Source: Acidimicrobiia bacterium (GTDB taxonomy: Bacteria > Actinomycetota > Acidimicrobiia > Spongiisociales > UBA5794). Taken from it: a stretch of DNA of 64,000 nt. Shown one piece after another: positions 16,872-33,252 of the stretch (the stretch's first letter is position 1; each line of letters starts with the position of its first letter). A program made the translations under genes and the position numbers. The stretch lies in contig DASWKR010000030.1 of the NCBI GenBank assembly GCA_036396535.1, positions 62,001 through 126,000 of the forward strand, in the 5' to 3' direction. A model generated the notes under the pieces. It was not told the DNA's origin. It searched no databases and was given only the letters and a program-made list of their open reading frames with translations.

Positions 16872-16896
16872 GGCCTCTGCGAGTCGACCTGGTTCT

Positions 16897-16946
16897 TGCA
16901 GGAGCCATCAGCCGTTCGGCGGTCGAAGGCGAGCTCCATCGCCTGG
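16897..16946 (-). promoter_or_regulatory. Fluoride riboswitch (crcB motif)
   Basis: Read on the minus strand, the leader contains AGGCGATGGAGCTCGCCT (16944-16927), then a small GCC-GAAC-GGC hairpin (16920-16911), then CTGATGGCTCCTGC (16911-16898). This is the crcB-motif layout: the GGCGATG...CGCC stem, the conserved CTGATG, and a pseudoknot between GGAGC in the first loop and GCTCC at the 3' end. It leads directly into two crcB genes and DUF190, so function and context agree. It should switch the operon on when cytoplasmic fluoride rises. Confidence 0.92.
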
Positions 16947-16986
16947 CGGCGAATGATAGAGCCGTCACCCCCGGCGCGTTCCCTCG

Positions 16987-22390: not shown

Positions 22391-23358
22391 CAGTTCGTAG
22401 GGATCGGGGCCGGATTCGCCTCGAGGAGCTCGTCGATGATGGAGTCTGAGATGACACCGTCGGCGGCTGCCTCGTACCCGAGCACCAGCCGGTGTCGCAG
22501 CGCCAGCTTGGCGATCTCGCGGACGTCTTCGCCCGACAGGTTGAGCCGCCCGTCGATCAGCGCCCGCGCCTTCCCGCCGAGCACCACCGCCTGCGCGCCG
22601 CGCGGGCTGGCGCCGAAGCGAACGTAGCGACGGACGAGGGGGGTCGCTGAGTCGTGCCCCGGGTGGGTGGCGGTGATCAGTGTGGAGGCGTATCGCAGCA
22701 CGTGGGTGGCGGCAGGCACCTGTCGAACGAGACCGAGCATCTCCTTGAGCACCTGATCGTCTGCAAGGGCGCTCACCTCGACCGACTCGTCGGCAGTCGT
22801 CCGTTGCAGGATGCCGACCATGTCGTCCGTCGAGGGAAACGGCACGAGGATCTTGAAGAGAAACCGGTCGAGCTGCGCCTCGGGAAGCGGGTACGTTCCC
22901 TCCATCTCCAGCGGGTTCTGCGTGGCCATCACGAAGAACGGCCTCGGCAGCGGGTGGGTCGTCCCCCCGAGGGTGACGCGGCGCTCCTGCATCGCCTCGA
23001 GAAGGGCCGATTGGGTCTTCGGGGTCGCCCGGTTGACTTCGTCTGCGAGGACGACATTGGCGAAGATCGGGCCCTCGTGGAACCGGAACTCCCCCTCGCG
23101 CAGGACGTTGGTTCCGACGATGTCGGCCGGCATCAGGTCGGGTGTGAACTGGACGCGGCCGAACTCGACCGAGAGCGCCTCACCGAGCGTGCGCAGCAGC
23201 AGCGTCTTCCCGAGGCCGGGGACGCCTTCGAGCAGCACATGTCCCTCGCACAGCAGGCCGAGGAGAACGGCGCGCACCAGATCGTGCTGGCCGACGATGA
23301 CCTTGCCGATCTCGGCCTCGATCGCTTCGACGTTTTGGGCGAACGTTTCCGGGTTCAT
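22390..23358 (-). CDS. MoxR-family AAA+ ATPase
   Basis: A 322-residue ATPase. Walker A is LLEGVPGLGKTLLL (about 43-56), Walker B VVLADEVNRATPKTQSALLEAM, and the sensor region FVMATQNPLEMEGTYPLPEAQLDRF is complete. MoxR proteins act as chaperone-like ATPases that activate or assemble VWA-containing partners, which here are encoded by the next three genes. It overlaps the coiled-coil protein gene upstream by 4 bp. Confidence 0.94.
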   Translation of the reverse strand: MNPETFAQNVEAIEAEIGKVIVGQHDLVRAVLLGLLCEGHVLLEGVPGLGKTLLLRTLGEALSVEFGRVQFTPDLMPADIVGTNVLREGEFRFHEGPIFANVVLADEVNRATPKTQSALLEAMQERRVTLGGTTHPLPRPFFVMATQNPLEMEGTYPLPEAQLDRFLFKILVPFPSTDDMVGILQRTTADESVEVSALADDQVLKEMLGLVRQVPAATHVLRYASTLITATHPGHDSATPLVRRYVRFGASPRGAQAVVLGGKARALIDGRLNLSGEDVREIAKLALRHRLVLGYEAAADGVISDSIIDELLEANPAPIPTN

Positions 23359-24908
23359 TGGCCGCCTAACTCCGTGAAGTAGATCCGAACGATGTCCTGC
23401 AGGCTGCTCGGTATCGACATCCGGTCGAGAGCTCCGAGTGCCTGCTGCTGATAAGCCGTGAACCTGTCGGTGTACGGGACGAGCGGGAGGTTCTGCAGTC
23501 CTTGCCCGGAGGTGGTTCCCTCGACGTTGCCGGTCGGGTCGTTCCCGTCGAAGTCGACACGCTGCTCGTCGCCCTGCGTGAAGCCCTGGGGGTCCAGCAC
23601 GTTGGAGCGCCCGGGATCGTGGGCCGCGTCGCCGTCGCCGGCTCCGAGATCGGGATTCCCTGCCGAGCCGGTGCCCCCGCTCACCGGGTTCGGGTTGTTG
23701 ACGCCTCCCGCGCCCTGGCCTCCGCCACCTCCTTGGCCCTGACCCTGACCTTGGCCCTGGCCCTGACCCTGGCCCTGGCCCTGACCTTGACCTTGGCCCT
23801 GACCCTGCCCTTGGCCCTGACCCTCGCCCTGCTGGGCGTCCCGTGCATCGGCGAGCTGGCGCTGGCCGTCGCGCACCGATGCCTGGGCGTCGGCGGCATC
23901 GGACGCGGAGCCCACCCTGTTCTGTGCCCCCCTGAGCTGGTCGAGAGCAGCGTCGGCGGCGGCCGACGGGTCACCGTTGCCCTCGAGCGCCCTCGCCAGG
24001 TCTTCGAGGGATCCGGCGAGATCGGGAGAGGCGCCGGCCACTTGGTTGGCGAGCTCCCTGAGGCGCGCCGCCGTCGCCCTGCGCTCCTCGTCTGACATCG
24101 AGTCCGCCCGGCTCTTCACGTCCTCGAGCTGCGCCTCGGCGTCGCTGCCCTGGCCGATCGGGTTCTGCCGCAGCTGCTCGTCGAGTCCTGCCAGGGCTGT
24201 CTTGATGGGGAGCGCCTCCGGGTCGGCCGCTTCTGCGAGGTCCTGTCTGGCGTCACCGAGACGGCGGATCGCCTCGTCCAGGTCGTCGGCCTCCCGCAAC
24301 TCTTCGGCGGTCCGCCTCAGCTCGTCGGCGATCTCCTCGTCGTCGATCTCCTCGGCGGCCTCCTCCAGTTGGCGGGCGACTCCGTCGACCGCCTCGGCGA
24401 CCTCGGCCCTGCGCTCTTGCTCGGCATCAGCTGGCGACGCCGGTATCGCCAACACGAGGGCGGCGACGACGGCCAACACGGTGAGCATGACGAGGCGCCG
24501 GTTCGGGAGCACCGAACCGAACCCGGCGAGGGTCCTGGCCTCCGACCATGCCGCGCTGCGGCTGATCTGCTCCGTTTCGATGGCTGACAGCATCTGGCGG
24601 CGCGACAGCTCCAGTGCCGTGGCGAGCTGATCCTTGCCCCCGAGGCGCTGATCGGCGACGACGGCGGCGAGGTGCGTGCTCGGCGGTCTCGCCAACGTGT
24701 ATCCGGCGGCGAGCAGGACGGCGGCGCCGCCCGCGATGAAGACGGCAAGCTCGGCCCAAGGGATGACGACCCAGCGAGCGACCCCGAGGATGAGCGCCCC
24801 GCCGGCGGCGACGACGCCGATGGCCGTAACTGCGCGGCGCAACAGGCGAGCTGCTTGCAGGCGTCGCCGCGCCGCTCCGACGATGCGGTGGATCGAATCA
24901 AGCGGCAA
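23355..24908 (-). CDS. Membrane-anchored coiled-coil protein with (QG)n tract
   Basis: About 517 residues. The protein begins with a basic stretch (PLDSIHRIVGAARRRLQAARLL), has two hydrophobic pairs of helices (about 25-75, and VLAVVAALVLAIPA near 150), then a very long acidic coiled-coil rich in Glu, Ala and Asp, and a tract of alternating Gln-Gly. A conserved-looking C-terminus follows (YTDRFTAYQQQALGALDRMSI). The layout recalls DUF4175-type proteins found beside MoxR clusters; I cannot confirm that. The TTG start at 24908 has GGAGG 7 nt upstream and overlaps the permease gene by 11 bp; no better start exists nearby, since the frame continues openly inside the permease gene. Confidence 0.75.
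   Translation of the reverse strand: MPLDSIHRIVGAARRRLQAARLLRRAVTAIGVVAAGGALILGVARWVVIPWAELAVFIAGGAAVLLAAGYTLARPPSTHLAAVVADQRLGGKDQLATALELSRRQMLSAIETEQISRSAAWSEARTLAGFGSVLPNRRLVMLTVLAVVAALVLAIPASPADAEQERRAEVAEAVDGVARQLEEAAEEIDDEEIADELRRTAEELREADDLDEAIRRLGDARQDLAEAADPEALPIKTALAGLDEQLRQNPIGQGSDAEAQLEDVKSRADSMSDEERRATAARLRELANQVAGASPDLAGSLEDLARALEGNGDPSAAADAALDQLRGAQNRVGSASDAADAQASVRDGQRQLADARDAQQGEGQGQGQGQGQGQGQGQGQGQGQGQGQGQGQGGGGGQGAGGVNNPNPVSGGTGSAGNPDLGAGDGDAAHDPGRSNVLDPQGFTQGDEQRVDFDGNDPTGNVEGTTSGQGLQNLPLVPYTDRFTAYQQQALGALDRMSIPSSLQDIVRIYFTELGGQ
23733..23829 (-). repeat. Tandem 6-bp repeat coding (Gln-Gly)n
   Basis: An array of imperfect CAGGGC / CAAGGT hexamers on the minus strand encodes about 16 Gln-Gly dipeptides, starting QGEGQGQG. 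Such arrays are prone to slippage in multiples of one dipeptide, so length probably varies between strains without breaking the frame. Confidence 0.85.
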
Positions 24909-26019
24909 CTTGGGTCCTCCTTCGGCGCACGGAGCGGACACGGCCCCGCGGGACCTTGACATGACGGGTGGCGAGGTACAGAGCCCCCGCCGAGACGAGC
25001 AACTCGAAACCGAGGGTGATTGGCCAGGCTTGCACCCTGATCCGATCGGGAGTGCGTGTCGTGATGGCACCGACGCCATCCCCGCCCGGGAACGGCAAAG
25101 GCTGGAATCCGCGGCCGAAGCCGCCCTCCACCGCGACTCCACCCTCGAAGAAGCCGCCCCCGAACGGGCTGGTCAGCTCGTTGAGCTGTGAGGCTCCGAA
25201 CCCCTGTCGCTTCACGAGCACGGCCCGGAAGGGCAGATAGGGGGAGGTGACCGCCTCGGCTCGGAACTCGATCGGGTTCGACGAGGCGTCTACCAGCCCC
25301 ACGATCGGGTTCACGAGCGCCGAGTAGAGCTCGCGGCCGCCATCGCGCGGTACGCCGTTCTCGAAGCGGGTGGCGCCGAGGTCTTCCGGGGCGAGCAGGA
25401 AGAACTCGGCGACGAGGAGGAACAAGGTGCCGAACACGATGCCGACGGTCCAGATGTAGGAGCCGAGGACGGCTCCTTGGACGCTGCGGGCTCTGGCGGA
25501 CACCCACATCGAAACCGCCCCGATCATCACGGCGGTGGCGACCACCATGAGCATGCCCATCGCCACGTTCGTGAGCGTCACGCCTCCGAGCAACACCGGG
25601 ATCACGAGCAACGGCGTGGTGGCGACGAGCAGGAGGAGCACGTATGCCAGTGCCGACATGAGCTTGCCGAGCACGATCCGCCAGGCGCTCAGCTGCGACA
25701 CCTGGAGGAGCTGCAGGGTCTGACGCTCCCGCTCACCGACGATCGTCACGCCGGCCTGGCCGGGCACGACGAACACCACGGCGATGACGAGGCCGAGAAG
25801 CAAGGCGTGCAGGATGAACCTGCCCATCGAGGCCGAGGCGAAGATCGAAGACAAACCGCTGAAGCCGAAGCCCTCGAGCTGAGACTGCGAGGCGCTCCTC
25901 GCCGTGATGTACGCCAGGAACGTGAGGGCCCCGGCGGCGAGCACCCACACGCTGAGGAGTATCGGAGACCGCAGGGTCCGCCACCGCTCCTGGAGCTCTC
26001 GAATTGCCACCGGGTTCAT
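24898..26019 (-). CDS. ABC transporter permease
   Basis: A 373-residue ABC-2-like permease. It starts MNPVAIRELQERWRTLRSPI, a cytoplasmic amphipathic entry typical of the family, and has about six helices, including LHALLLGLVIAVVFVVP, KLMSALAYVLLLLVATTPLLVIP and IWTVGIVFGTLFLLVAEFFLLAP. The motif ERERQTLQLLQVSQLSAWRIVLGK matches the coupling region of CcmB/NatB-type permeases. An extended extracytoplasmic, Gly/Phe-rich loop precedes the last helix. The start at 26019 gives a 4-bp overlap with the ATPase gene. Substrate unknown. Confidence 0.85.
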   Translation of the reverse strand: MNPVAIRELQERWRTLRSPILLSVWVLAAGALTFLAYITARSASQSQLEGFGFSGLSSIFASASMGRFILHALLLGLVIAVVFVVPGQAGVTIVGERERQTLQLLQVSQLSAWRIVLGKLMSALAYVLLLLVATTPLLVIPVLLGGVTLTNVAMGMLMVVATAVMIGAVSMWVSARARSVQGAVLGSYIWTVGIVFGTLFLLVAEFFLLAPEDLGATRFENGVPRDGGRELYSALVNPIVGLVDASSNPIEFRAEAVTSPYLPFRAVLVKRQGFGASQLNELTSPFGGGFFEGGVAVEGGFGRGFQPLPFPGGDGVGAITTRTPDRIRVQAWPITLGFELLVSAGALYLATRHVKVPRGRVRSVRRRRTQVAA

Positions 26020-29203: not shown

Positions 29204-29743
29204 TCAGGTCGTCGATGCGACGACTCGATCGAGCTTCTGGCGCAGTTCCTGCTCGCCGAGCGCACCGAACCACATGTCGATGATGCGACCGTCGTGGATC
29301 AGGAATGTCGTCGGCTGACCGAACACCTCGTACAGCTCCCAGATCGAGTCGTCGTAGCCCCAGGCCAGATTGTCGCTGAACCATTCGGGAGCCCGCTCTC
29401 GGCTCGCTTCCTCGGTGCTCCGCCCCGCCACTGCGACGAACTCCACGGAGTCGAGATAGTCGGCTGCTACCTCATCGACGACGGGCAACTCCCGCCTGCA
29501 GGTCGTTCACCACTCAGCCCAGAAGACCATGTAGACCGGCCTCGCCTCCCGCGCCAGGTCGAACGTCGAGCCGTCGCCGAGGACGAGGGTGAAGCTCGGT
29601 GCAACCGGTCCGTCAGGCTCGGCGTCCGTCGTCGTATCAGGGGCAGGCGCCGTCGGCGAGGTCGACGAAATCGTGGCGGGGCCCCCGCCGCACGCCGCTG
29701 CGAGCAGGGCGAACACCGCCACGATCCTGACGAAACGGCTCAT
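29204..29743 (-). CDS. Thioredoxin-fold lipoprotein, putative selenoprotein (UGA at first active-site Cys)
   Basis: A 179-residue reading frame interrupted by one in-frame UGA at 29509-29507 (codon 79). MSRFVRIVAVFALLAAAC is a lipoprotein signal. A Thr/Pro/Asp linker follows, then the thioredoxin domain: SFTLVLGDGSTFDL, VYMVFWAEW, then UGA, then TTCRRELPVVDE. Relatives read WCxxC here, so the UGA stands exactly for the first catalytic cysteine, giving U-T-T-C. The remainder is intact, including the cis-Pro segment FGQPTTFLIHDGRI. A hairpin after the UGA fits the bacterial SECIS pattern. TATGGT lies 6 nt before the ATG. The simplest alternative is a Cys-to-stop mutation or sequencing error; no sel genes are in this window to test it. 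Confidence 0.72.
29476..29509 (-). promoter_or_regulatory. Putative SECIS element downstream of UGA
   Basis: On the minus strand after UGA (29509-29507): a lower stem CGAC (29505-29502) with GTCG (29479-29476), a five-base bulge CTGCA, an upper stem GGCGGG (29496-29491) with CCCGTC (29485-29480, one G-U pair), and loop AGTTG. The loop begins 16 nt after the UGA and has G and U at its second and third positions, as in known bacterial SECIS hairpins. Identified by hand-folding only. Confidence 0.6.
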
Positions 29744-29749
29744 GCCGTG

Positions 29750-29755
29750 ACCATA
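29750..29755 (-). promoter_or_regulatory. -10 box of the putative selenoprotein gene (leaderless)
   Basis: TATGGT on the minus strand, 6 nt before the ATG at 29743. It indicates the gene has its own promoter and is not just a remnant. Confidence 0.5.
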
Positions 29756-29831: not shown

Positions 29832-30872
29832 TCATGGGGCACCGTTGTCGCCGCCGGGCCCTTCGTATGTCAGCGCCCGTTCGAGGACGGCGGCGGCGTC
29901 CCCGCTGTCGACCGATTGGGCGGCCAGGGCCATGGCCTCCGTGAAGCCGTCCGCCAGGCCACCCGCCACGATGGCGGGCGACGCGTTCACCAGGGCGATG
30001 TCGCGGTGAGGGCCCTTGGCTCCCTCGATGACCGACCGGGTGATCTCGACGTTGCGGATGACGTCCCCGCCCCGGATCTCGTCGAGTGTCGACCTGCGAA
30101 CCCCGAAGTCCTCAGGCGTGAACTCGGCGTGCGTGATCTCGCCGTCTTTCAGCCGGTAGATGAAAGAGGGGCCGGTCGTCGTGAGCTCGTCGAGCCCGTC
30201 CTCGCCGTAGTACACGAAGGCGTACTCCAGGCCGAGATTGTCCAGCACCTGGATCATGCGCTCCGCCATCTTCGGATCGGACACGCCGATGGCGGACCGC
30301 GACGCCCGCGCCGGATTGCACATCGGCCCGAGGAAGTTGAAGACGGACCTGACGCCGAGCTCACGCCTCACAGGTCCGGCGTGACGCATCGCCGGGTGGT
30401 ACGCAGGTGCGAACAAGAAGCCGAACCCGACGTCGCGGATCATCGCGGCGGTTGTCGCCGGACCGTGGTCGAGCCGCAGACCGAGCGCCTCGAGCAGGTC
30501 GGCAGACCCGGTGTCCGAGGATGCGGCCCGGTTGCCATGCTTGGCGATCTTGACGCCTGCTCCTGCTGCGATGAAGGCGGCCGTCGTCGAGATGTTGAAC
30601 GTGCCCGCCCGGTCGCCGCCTGTGCCCACGAGGTCGACCACCGGCTCGCCGACGTCGATCGTGACGGCGGCGTCGTACATCGCCTCGACGAGTCCGGTCA
30701 TCTCGTCCGCGGTCTCACCCTTGGACCGCAGCGCGACGATGAACCCGGCGATCTGAGCGGGTGTCGCCTCGCCTGACATGATCTCGTTCATCGCGGCGCG
30801 GGCGTCATGCCTGCTGAGGCTCTCGCCAGCAATGAGTCGAGTGAGGAGATCAGGCCAGGGGAAGTCCGACAT
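29832..30872 (-). CDS. trpD: Anthranilate phosphoribosyltransferase
   Basis: A 346-residue enzyme that joins anthranilate to PRPP in tryptophan synthesis. It has VDLVGTGGDRAGTFNISTTAAF (PRPP loop), KHGNRAASSDTGSADLLEALG and the Mg-binding region FVYYGEDGLDELTTTGPS. The N-terminal helical domain LLTRLIAGESLSRHDARAAM is normal. No other trp gene is adjacent, so it is a detached single gene, common in actinobacteria. TATCTT lies 9 nt before the ATG at 30872. The frame is open far upstream, but only this start gives the conserved N-terminus. Confidence 0.94.
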   Translation of the reverse strand: MSDFPWPDLLTRLIAGESLSRHDARAAMNEIMSGEATPAQIAGFIVALRSKGETADEMTGLVEAMYDAAVTIDVGEPVVDLVGTGGDRAGTFNISTTAAFIAAGAGVKIAKHGNRAASSDTGSADLLEALGLRLDHGPATTAAMIRDVGFGFLFAPAYHPAMRHAGPVRRELGVRSVFNFLGPMCNPARASRSAIGVSDPKMAERMIQVLDNLGLEYAFVYYGEDGLDELTTTGPSFIYRLKDGEITHAEFTPEDFGVRRSTLDEIRGGDVIRNVEITRSVIEGAKGPHRDIALVNASPAIVAGGLADGFTEAMALAAQSVDSGDAAAVLERALTYEGPGGDNGAP

Positions 30873-31529: not shown

Positions 31530-31796
31530 TCAGCGCCGCAGCCTGCTCCGGCGCTCCTTGTCGGTGAGCCCTCCCCAGATCCCGAAGCGCTCGCGCGCCT
31601 CCAAGGCGTATGCGAGACATTCGGATCTGACCGGACAGGTGAGGCAGATGGAGATCGCCACGTCGGATTCCTCCTTCGTGGCTGGGAAGAAGATGTCGGG
31701 GTCCTTGTCGCGACAGGCGGAGAACACGACCCAAGGGCGCTCATCGGTGACCGGGGCCGCCAGAATGACTGGGGGGATCTCCAGCGTGTCTGTCAT
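31530..31796 (-). CDS. WhiB-family [4Fe-4S] transcription factor
   Basis: An 88-residue Wbl protein. Four cluster-ligating cysteines are in place (FSACRDKDPDIFFP, then ICLTCPVRSECLAYAL), followed by the turn FGIWGGL and a basic DNA-binding tail, TDKERRSRLRR. WhiB proteins are confined to actinobacteria and their phages and bind RNA polymerase sigma factor; the closest general types are WhiB1/WhiB2-like, which regulate growth and division, but I cannot assign the subclass. The ATG at 31796 has a GAGG site upstream; a GTG at 31838 is possible. Confidence 0.93.
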   Translation of the reverse strand: MTDTLEIPPVILAAPVTDERPWVVFSACRDKDPDIFFPATKEESDVAISICLTCPVRSECLAYALEARERFGIWGGLTDKERRSRLRR

Positions 31797-31922
31797 CGGG
31801 GTGGCACCTCGAGGTGTCGAGACTGAAGACACAGTCACCCATTAAGACGAACTGATCGGGGCTTTGGTTCCCGCGGGCCGAGCGGAAGCCTCTCCTCACG
31901 AAACGGGCTCGCTCCGCATCGC

Positions 31923-32931: not shown

Positions 32932-33249
32932 GTCGAGTCCGGGAGACGGCCGCGGCCGCGAGGCCGAGGAAAGTCCGGACTCCACAGGGCACGGTGCTGG
33001 CTAACGGCCAGGCGGGGCGACCCGACGGACAGTGCAACAGAGAGCAGACCGCCGATGGGCTTCGGCCACAGGCAAGGGTGAAACGGTGGTGTAAGAGACC
33101 ACCAGCGCCTCGGGTGACCGGGACGGCTCTGTAAACCCCACCGGGAGCAAGGCCAAGCAGGGACAGGGTGGCCCGCCCGTCACGTCCCAGGTGGGCCGCT
33201 CAGATAGATGGCCGTCCTCGACAGAATCCGGCTTACACCCGGACTCGGC
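32932..33249 (+). ncRNA. rnpB: RNase P RNA, type A
   Basis: The catalytic RNA of RNase P, which trims tRNA 5' ends. The ends form a perfect 10-bp P1 helix: CGAGTCCGGG (32934-32943) with CCCGGACTCG (33238-33247). Universal blocks are present in order: GAGGAAAGTCCGGACTCC, CAACAGAGAGCAGACCGCC, AAGGGTGAAACGGTGG with GTAAGAG, AAACCCCACCGGGAGCAAGG, and CGACAGAATCCGGCTTAC. The domain layout is the ancestral A type found in actinobacteria. Exact ends are within a few bases. A strong hairpin follows. Confidence 0.96.
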
Positions 33250-33252
33250 GCC

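Follow-up and report, generated by a model that had tools for sequence, protein, structure and literature searches.

Thioredoxin-like selenoproteins carrying selenocysteine (Sec) in a UxxC motif are an established kind (PMC13188914, PMC1794560). Table 1 of PMC13188914 lists UxxC selenoproteins of the Thiol-disulfide isomerase-like, Redoxin-family and Prx-like thiol:disulfide oxidoreductase types, together with a 'UGC-containing TlpA disulfide reductase'. These share with the protein described here the thioredoxin/TlpA fold, the placement of Sec first in UxxC (or UGC) and decoding through SelB and a SECIS element. Judging from their descriptions, the present subfamily is set apart from them as a short predicted lipoprotein, found in our sample in one actinobacterial order and characterized by the motif FWAEW-U-xx-C-RREL. 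Actinobacteria were counted among the selenoprotein-rich phyla in 2006 (PMC1794560), and Sec itself is hence not unusual in a phylum for which a preliminary, sequence-only reading of the locus had considered such a lipoprotein unexpected.

Among protein family models, the nearest Sec model is NCBIfam NF041054 (WAxxUGC_long, ResA-like WAxxUGC protein), which is likewise ResA-like and places Sec at the same position, but the protein studied here scores 24 bits against its cut-off of 300, presents UxxC instead of UGC and has half the length. The ResA equivalog model NF002854 was also missed (58 bits against a cut-off of 170), and the protein passed none of the NCBIfam models. ResA of Bacillus shares with it the fold (TM about 0.8), the spacing of the active-site Glu and the extracytoplasmic membrane anchoring predicted for it, but has Cys in place of Sec, is only 22-26% identical and is anchored by a transmembrane segment rather than a lipobox. 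In Streptococcus pneumoniae, two surface-exposed lipoproteins per cell, Etrx1 and Etrx2, adopt the thioredoxin fold and are reduced via CcdA (PMC3914529). Both combine lipid anchoring and fold as predicted for the present protein, and their structures (4hqs and 4hqz) are among its matches; they contain Cys, not Sec, and have a known Msr partner, whereas the present protein is likened to them from genes and a model. The titles, abstracts and passages surveyed, from mostly open-access literature, contained no description of this Sec-thioredoxin lipoprotein subfamily. Given that the UxxC kind is known, that no NCBIfam model is passed and that this body of text holds no description, we regard the subfamily as new; the evidence strongly supports a genuine, order-wide subfamily of UxxC thioredoxin-like selenoproteins within that known kind.

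Gene architecture and genomic context

The gene lies on the minus strand of a 64,000-nucleotide stretch of an Acidimicrobiia genome, hereafter the window, in which the following features were delineated:

29204-29743, minus strand: coding sequence of the predicted Sec-thioredoxin lipoprotein, 179 amino acids with the UGA read through; TGA is also the terminal stop
29690-29743, minus strand: predicted lipoprotein signal peptide MSRFVRIVAVFALLAAAC, with the lipobox Cys at 29692-29690, from the sequence and its orthologues
29507-29509, minus strand: UGA, predicted Sec codon at the first catalytic position (UxxC); TGA in 72 of 77 copies, TGC or TGT in 5
29498-29500, minus strand: TGC codon for the resolving Cys of UxxC, invariant in alignment A1
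29480-29496, minus strand: SECIS-like hairpin with a 6-bp stem and an AGUUG loop (29490-29486), from an RNAalifold consensus, covariation and codon constraint
29832-30872, minus strand: trpD (anthranilate phosphoribosyltransferase), the same-strand upstream neighbour; Pfam Glycos_transf_3, 273.8 bits
26993-29149, minus strand: downstream membrane protein of 718 residues, a neighbour in 10 of 77 loci

Between the ATG at 29743 and the terminal TGA at 29206-29204, the TGA at 29509-29507 is the sole internal stop, in agreement with the initial description of a single in-frame UGA in an otherwise intact gene. The 3' end of the extent first proposed (29204-29755) stands, but its 5' end lies upstream of the likely start codon. 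The leaderless-type promoter that had also been proposed is not supported; a sigma-70 consensus scan found none. In the readthrough product, a predicted lipoprotein signal is followed by a linker of low complexity and a thioredoxin domain, which matches Pfam Thioredoxin (PF00085, 36.5 bits) and AhpC-TSA (31.6 bits) above their cut-offs. The n-region, hydrophobic stretch and LAAAC of the signal peptide were recognized by eye, and orthologues present a similar stretch followed by Cys. The active-site context reads FWAEW-U-TTC-RRELP, with U at the first Cys of WCxxC.

In 43 of the 77 loci trpD is likewise the upstream neighbour, in the orientation of the Sec gene; this synteny supports the orthology of the Sec-thioredoxin loci and carries no suggestion as to function. 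Many relatives encode near the Sec gene a second, Cys-type thioredoxin lipoprotein (WASWCxPCRSEAP), which was convergent and downstream wherever its position was checked (L276:5594-6172, L280:8348-8848, L278:7545-8021); at the first of these loci it is followed by a gene for Lgt, the prolipoprotein diacylglyceryl transferase. In the window genome this slot is occupied by the large downstream protein, for which a Pfam search returned no family.

Elsewhere, the window holds a fluoride riboswitch (crcB motif; 16892-16952, minus strand, 48.1 bits), a class A RNase P RNA (32934-33251, plus strand, 253.8 bits), an open reading frame that contains an extended low-complexity stretch rich in (GQ)n (23355-25142) and, near 31530-31838, a WhiB-like gene; its G+C content is high. 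The latter two features suggest an actinobacterial phylum. The window was also scanned crudely, with a codon-composition filter, for other genes with an in-frame TGA, and no candidate next to a Cys emerged. The Sec-thioredoxin gene itself fails this filter, so that further such genes may be present in the window.

Conservation of the UGA codon and the Sec machinery

Orthologues with exactly one internal TGA were present in the genomes of 45 out of 60 relatives. Among 395 genomes sampled across the class, 99 returned a match at E <= 1e-24; all belong to one order, in which they are spread over eight families (f1 to f8), and nearly all have one TGA. Every one of the eight sampled families carries orthologues with a single TGA at the catalytic codon. 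The rest of the phylum returned only distant relatives, as did, among the matches listed, a scan of the genome_contigs and viral_contigs collections with Sec back-translated as a Cys codon. A codon-level reading of 77 aligned copies identified TGA in 72 and TGC or TGT in five, and by alignment L235 was additionally read as a Cys copy, and L037 and L231 as TGA copies. At the WCxxC position, the Cys orthologues have WAEWCPICRKELP, WAEWCGICEREMP or similar sequences, and the UGA thus falls exactly on the first catalytic Cys, as had been proposed. An in-frame UGA at a redox-active position that homologues fill with Cys is the arrangement expected of a bacterial selenoprotein.

In a single genome, a nonsense mutation or a base error in a former CxxC thioredoxin gene would give the same appearance of one internal stop, and Cys homologues of this gene do exist. 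Against such an origin, TGA at the identical codon in 72 of the 77 aligned copies is not a product of chance. These copies span eight families, their frames are otherwise intact, and both the protein and the codons of the hairpin are conserved. Decay or sequencing error was accordingly rejected on the conservation of TGA across the order, and we consider it next to inconceivable.

The genome holding the window (3.13 Mb, 96% complete) encodes a tRNA-Sec (72.7 bits against a 47-bit cut-off; anticodon tca according to ARAGORN), SelB (327.8 bits), SelA (418 bits), whose gene directly adjoins selB, and SelD (393.5 bits). As other tRNA genes also score some 30-51 bits with the tRNA-Sec model (RF01852), only matches of about at least 57 bits, in genomes with SelB, were counted. 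With tRNA-Sec, SelA, SelB and SelD all encoded, as in other bacteria with selenoproteins, the Sec trait is complete in this genome. SelD is itself a selenoprotein candidate, with one in-frame TGA in the context HGAG-U-ACKLGPDEL (L258, G000:C35:175508-176434), and its GAG-U-ACK corresponds to the UxxK that PMC13188914 gives as the motif of selenoprotein SelD. The sequence-only reading, which proposed a selenoprotein, had named three observations that would speak against it: absence of selB and selC, a Cys codon on re-reading, and decayed homologues. None was made; both genes are present, together with selA and selD, the codon is TGA here and across the order, and the homologues are intact.

An open frame under a code in which TGA specifies a residue would by itself also be compatible with UGA being read without SelB, through genome-wide reassignment to Trp or Cys or through plain stop-codon readthrough. 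However, TGA is also the terminal stop in 37 of the UGA copies, including the window gene, indicating that UGA has not been reassigned, and a change of genetic code was rejected on these grounds. The complete Sec machinery and the coincidence of the UGA with the catalytic Cys of the Cys forms, whose genomes mostly lack SelB, further argue against decoding without SelB, which we deem very improbable.

A SECIS-like hairpin under codon-level constraint

Constraints for bacterial SECIS elements have been formulated as a loop of 3-9 nt, a stem of 4-16 bp, a spacing of 16-37 nt from the UGA and a minimum free energy <= -7.5, with G among the first two nucleotides of the loop and, in most cases, G or U after it (PMC13188914). 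The hairpin noted at the outset, CGGG-AGUUG-CCCG, was recovered as described, with a loop that begins 16 nt past the UGA and has G at position 2 followed by U; its 5-nt loop, 6 bp, spacing and energy of about -10 kcal/mol all fall within those bounds. In the window sequence alone, this hairpin is not significant (-10 kcal/mol, z -1.2) and is less stable than in relatives, and longer stretches of the sequence fold into competing structures. Folding of a single sequence would therefore not have settled the presence of a SECIS, and the evidence is comparative.

The CGGG/CCCG stem is near invariant among UGA copies, and the codons that form the hairpin depart from the usage of the same genes elsewhere: Leu is encoded by TTR in 61 of the 72 UGA copies (12.9% elsewhere), Arg by CGG in 70 (34%) and Pro by CCC in 68 (36%). 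Positions 26 and 42 covary, with G-C in 42 copies, A-T in 17, G-T in 4 and A-C in none (p = 6e-12 in a Fisher test, which ignores phylogeny), while seven control positions gave p > 0.05. Position 26 is the second base of codon +4 (Arg/Gly versus Gln/Lys), and position 42 the third, mostly silent base of codon +9. Along supported branches of the tree only four independent contrasts exist for this pair, of which about three are as expected and none is against. One copy (L209) replaces C-G with A-U at the 28-40 pair. Four UGA copies lack the 4-bp stem in register, three of which can shift to a tetraloop. The Cys forms have AAG-GAG-CTC-CCC, CGC-GAG-ATG-CCG or comparable codons here, with which the stem does not form. 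Selection of the type expected for a SECIS is visible at the codon level in the UGA copies, with the stem lost in the Cys forms.

The same hairpin could be thought to modulate termination at a true, regulated stop, with a short lipopeptide as the main product and Sec readthrough as a minor one. Sec decoding competes with the release factor, and some truncated product is therefore likely. Yet conservation is high over the roughly 100 residues past the UGA, where positions with Cys, Glu and Gln-Pro are invariant, which argues against the lipopeptide as main product and leaves a regulated stop improbable, if slightly less so than decoding without SelB. Taken together, comparative data strongly support Sec coding, the SECIS-like hairpin, the Sec machinery, the predicted fold and the exchange of Sec for Cys in a small number of relatives. 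We hold with high confidence that the gene encodes a selenoprotein, predicted to be a lipid-anchored, extracytoplasmic thiol-disulfide oxidoreductase of the TlpA/ResA type, with Sec as the attacking residue of UxxC, decoded via SECIS and SelB. The hairpin a few codons past the catalytic UGA would act as the SECIS and recruit SelB with Sec-tRNA-Sec, so that this UGA would be decoded as Sec and the terminal UGA of the same gene read as a stop.

Putative function and Sec/Cys replacement

An AlphaFold2 model built on a 29-row alignment (pLDDT 90.4) displays a thioredoxin fold, consistent with the Pfam match and the original assignment, and locates Sec at the N-terminal end of the first helix to follow the active-site strand. 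Its closest matches among solved structures are ResA (4nmu, the best PDB match, E 1e-11), a DsbE-like protein, Etrx2 and Etrx1. The modelled fold, the CxxC-type site and the match to ResA place the protein in the TlpA/ResA-like thioredoxin superfamily. An invariant Glu is found three residues past the resolving Cys, the spacing of Cys77 and Glu80 in ResA. The window genome also encodes a CcdA-type membrane protein (33.8 bits against a cut-off of 27.1) with the motifs SPCVLPLLPGY and GWTPCLGP.

The CcdA-Etrx-MsrAB pathway (PMC3914529) suggests by analogy that the most likely role is that of an extracytoplasmic reductase, with substrate and electron donor assigned from homology. Following export and lipidation, the selenolate would attack an oxidized substrate, which may be a disulfide or an extracytoplasmic repair enzyme in its oxidized state, for instance a methionine sulfoxide reductase. 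Resolution of the intermediate by the second Cys would yield a selenenylsulfide, which the CcdA-type membrane protein would re-reduce with electrons from cytoplasmic thioredoxin. A role in peroxide or methionine repair, as first suggested, is a guess. The main rival as regards the substrate is cytochrome c maturation, in which the protein would serve as a ResA/CcmG-like reductase instead of a surface repair enzyme. ResA providing the closest solved structures and the invariant Glu at the Glu80 spacing both point in that direction, but the neighbours are trpD and the second Cys thioredoxin lipoprotein, not haem or cytochrome genes, and we regard this assignment as rather unlikely. The choice between the two concerns the substrate and leaves Sec coding unaffected.

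Other Sec-type lipoproteins were observed alongside the subfamily. In three genomes, two or three genes for Sec thioredoxin lipoproteins stand in tandem, and every gene of an array has a UGA and a hairpin of its own (L245 in G256, L246 in G276 and L256 in G191). Further UGA-containing thioredoxin-like lipoproteins of the same order (L224, L225 and L226 in G014, G049 and G042; L223 in G008) have roughly 30% identity to the window protein and read FWAPH-U-PTC-RRE and WAPW-U-TVC-QRE. In another class of the phylum, thioredoxin lipoproteins of family f61 read FWESW-U-xxC (L269, L272, L273) or, in a Cys version, FWESWCPVC (L270), and probably constitute another Sec/Cys family.

On the tree of the subfamily, many forks of which are poorly supported, the Cys copies are nested among Sec copies and call for some three to four changes. 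Of the 45 UGA genomes, 41 have a SelB that exceeds the cut-off; in one of the others (G015) it is split over contigs, and no SelB over the cut-off was detected in G021, G029 and G033, which are 72-90% complete. SelB was not above the cut-off in four of the five Cys-only genomes (G080, G266, G218 and G178). The fifth (G227) still has SelB and tRNA-Sec, and one genome with SelB (G272) holds both a Sec and a Cys copy. This pattern is what would be expected if a Sec protein drifted to Cys and the machinery was then lost; the counts are small, and they come from draft genomes. We tentatively propose, as a possibility somewhat short of even, that the order keeps Sec decoding for an extracytoplasmic network of lipid-anchored thioredoxins, and that replacement of Sec by Cys tends to bring loss of the SelB machinery. 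The network so conceived covers the Sec lipoprotein beside its convergent Cys lipoprotein, the tandem Sec copies and the further UxxC lipoprotein families.

Because standard annotation either fragments or omits this gene, a redox protein conserved across an order is easily missed. The lineage decodes Sec almost universally, and its Sec forms, nested Cys forms and SelB losses offer a natural Sec/Cys comparison that bears on what keeps the Sec trait alive, while the predicted exported Sec reductase is a candidate for extracytoplasmic redox repair.
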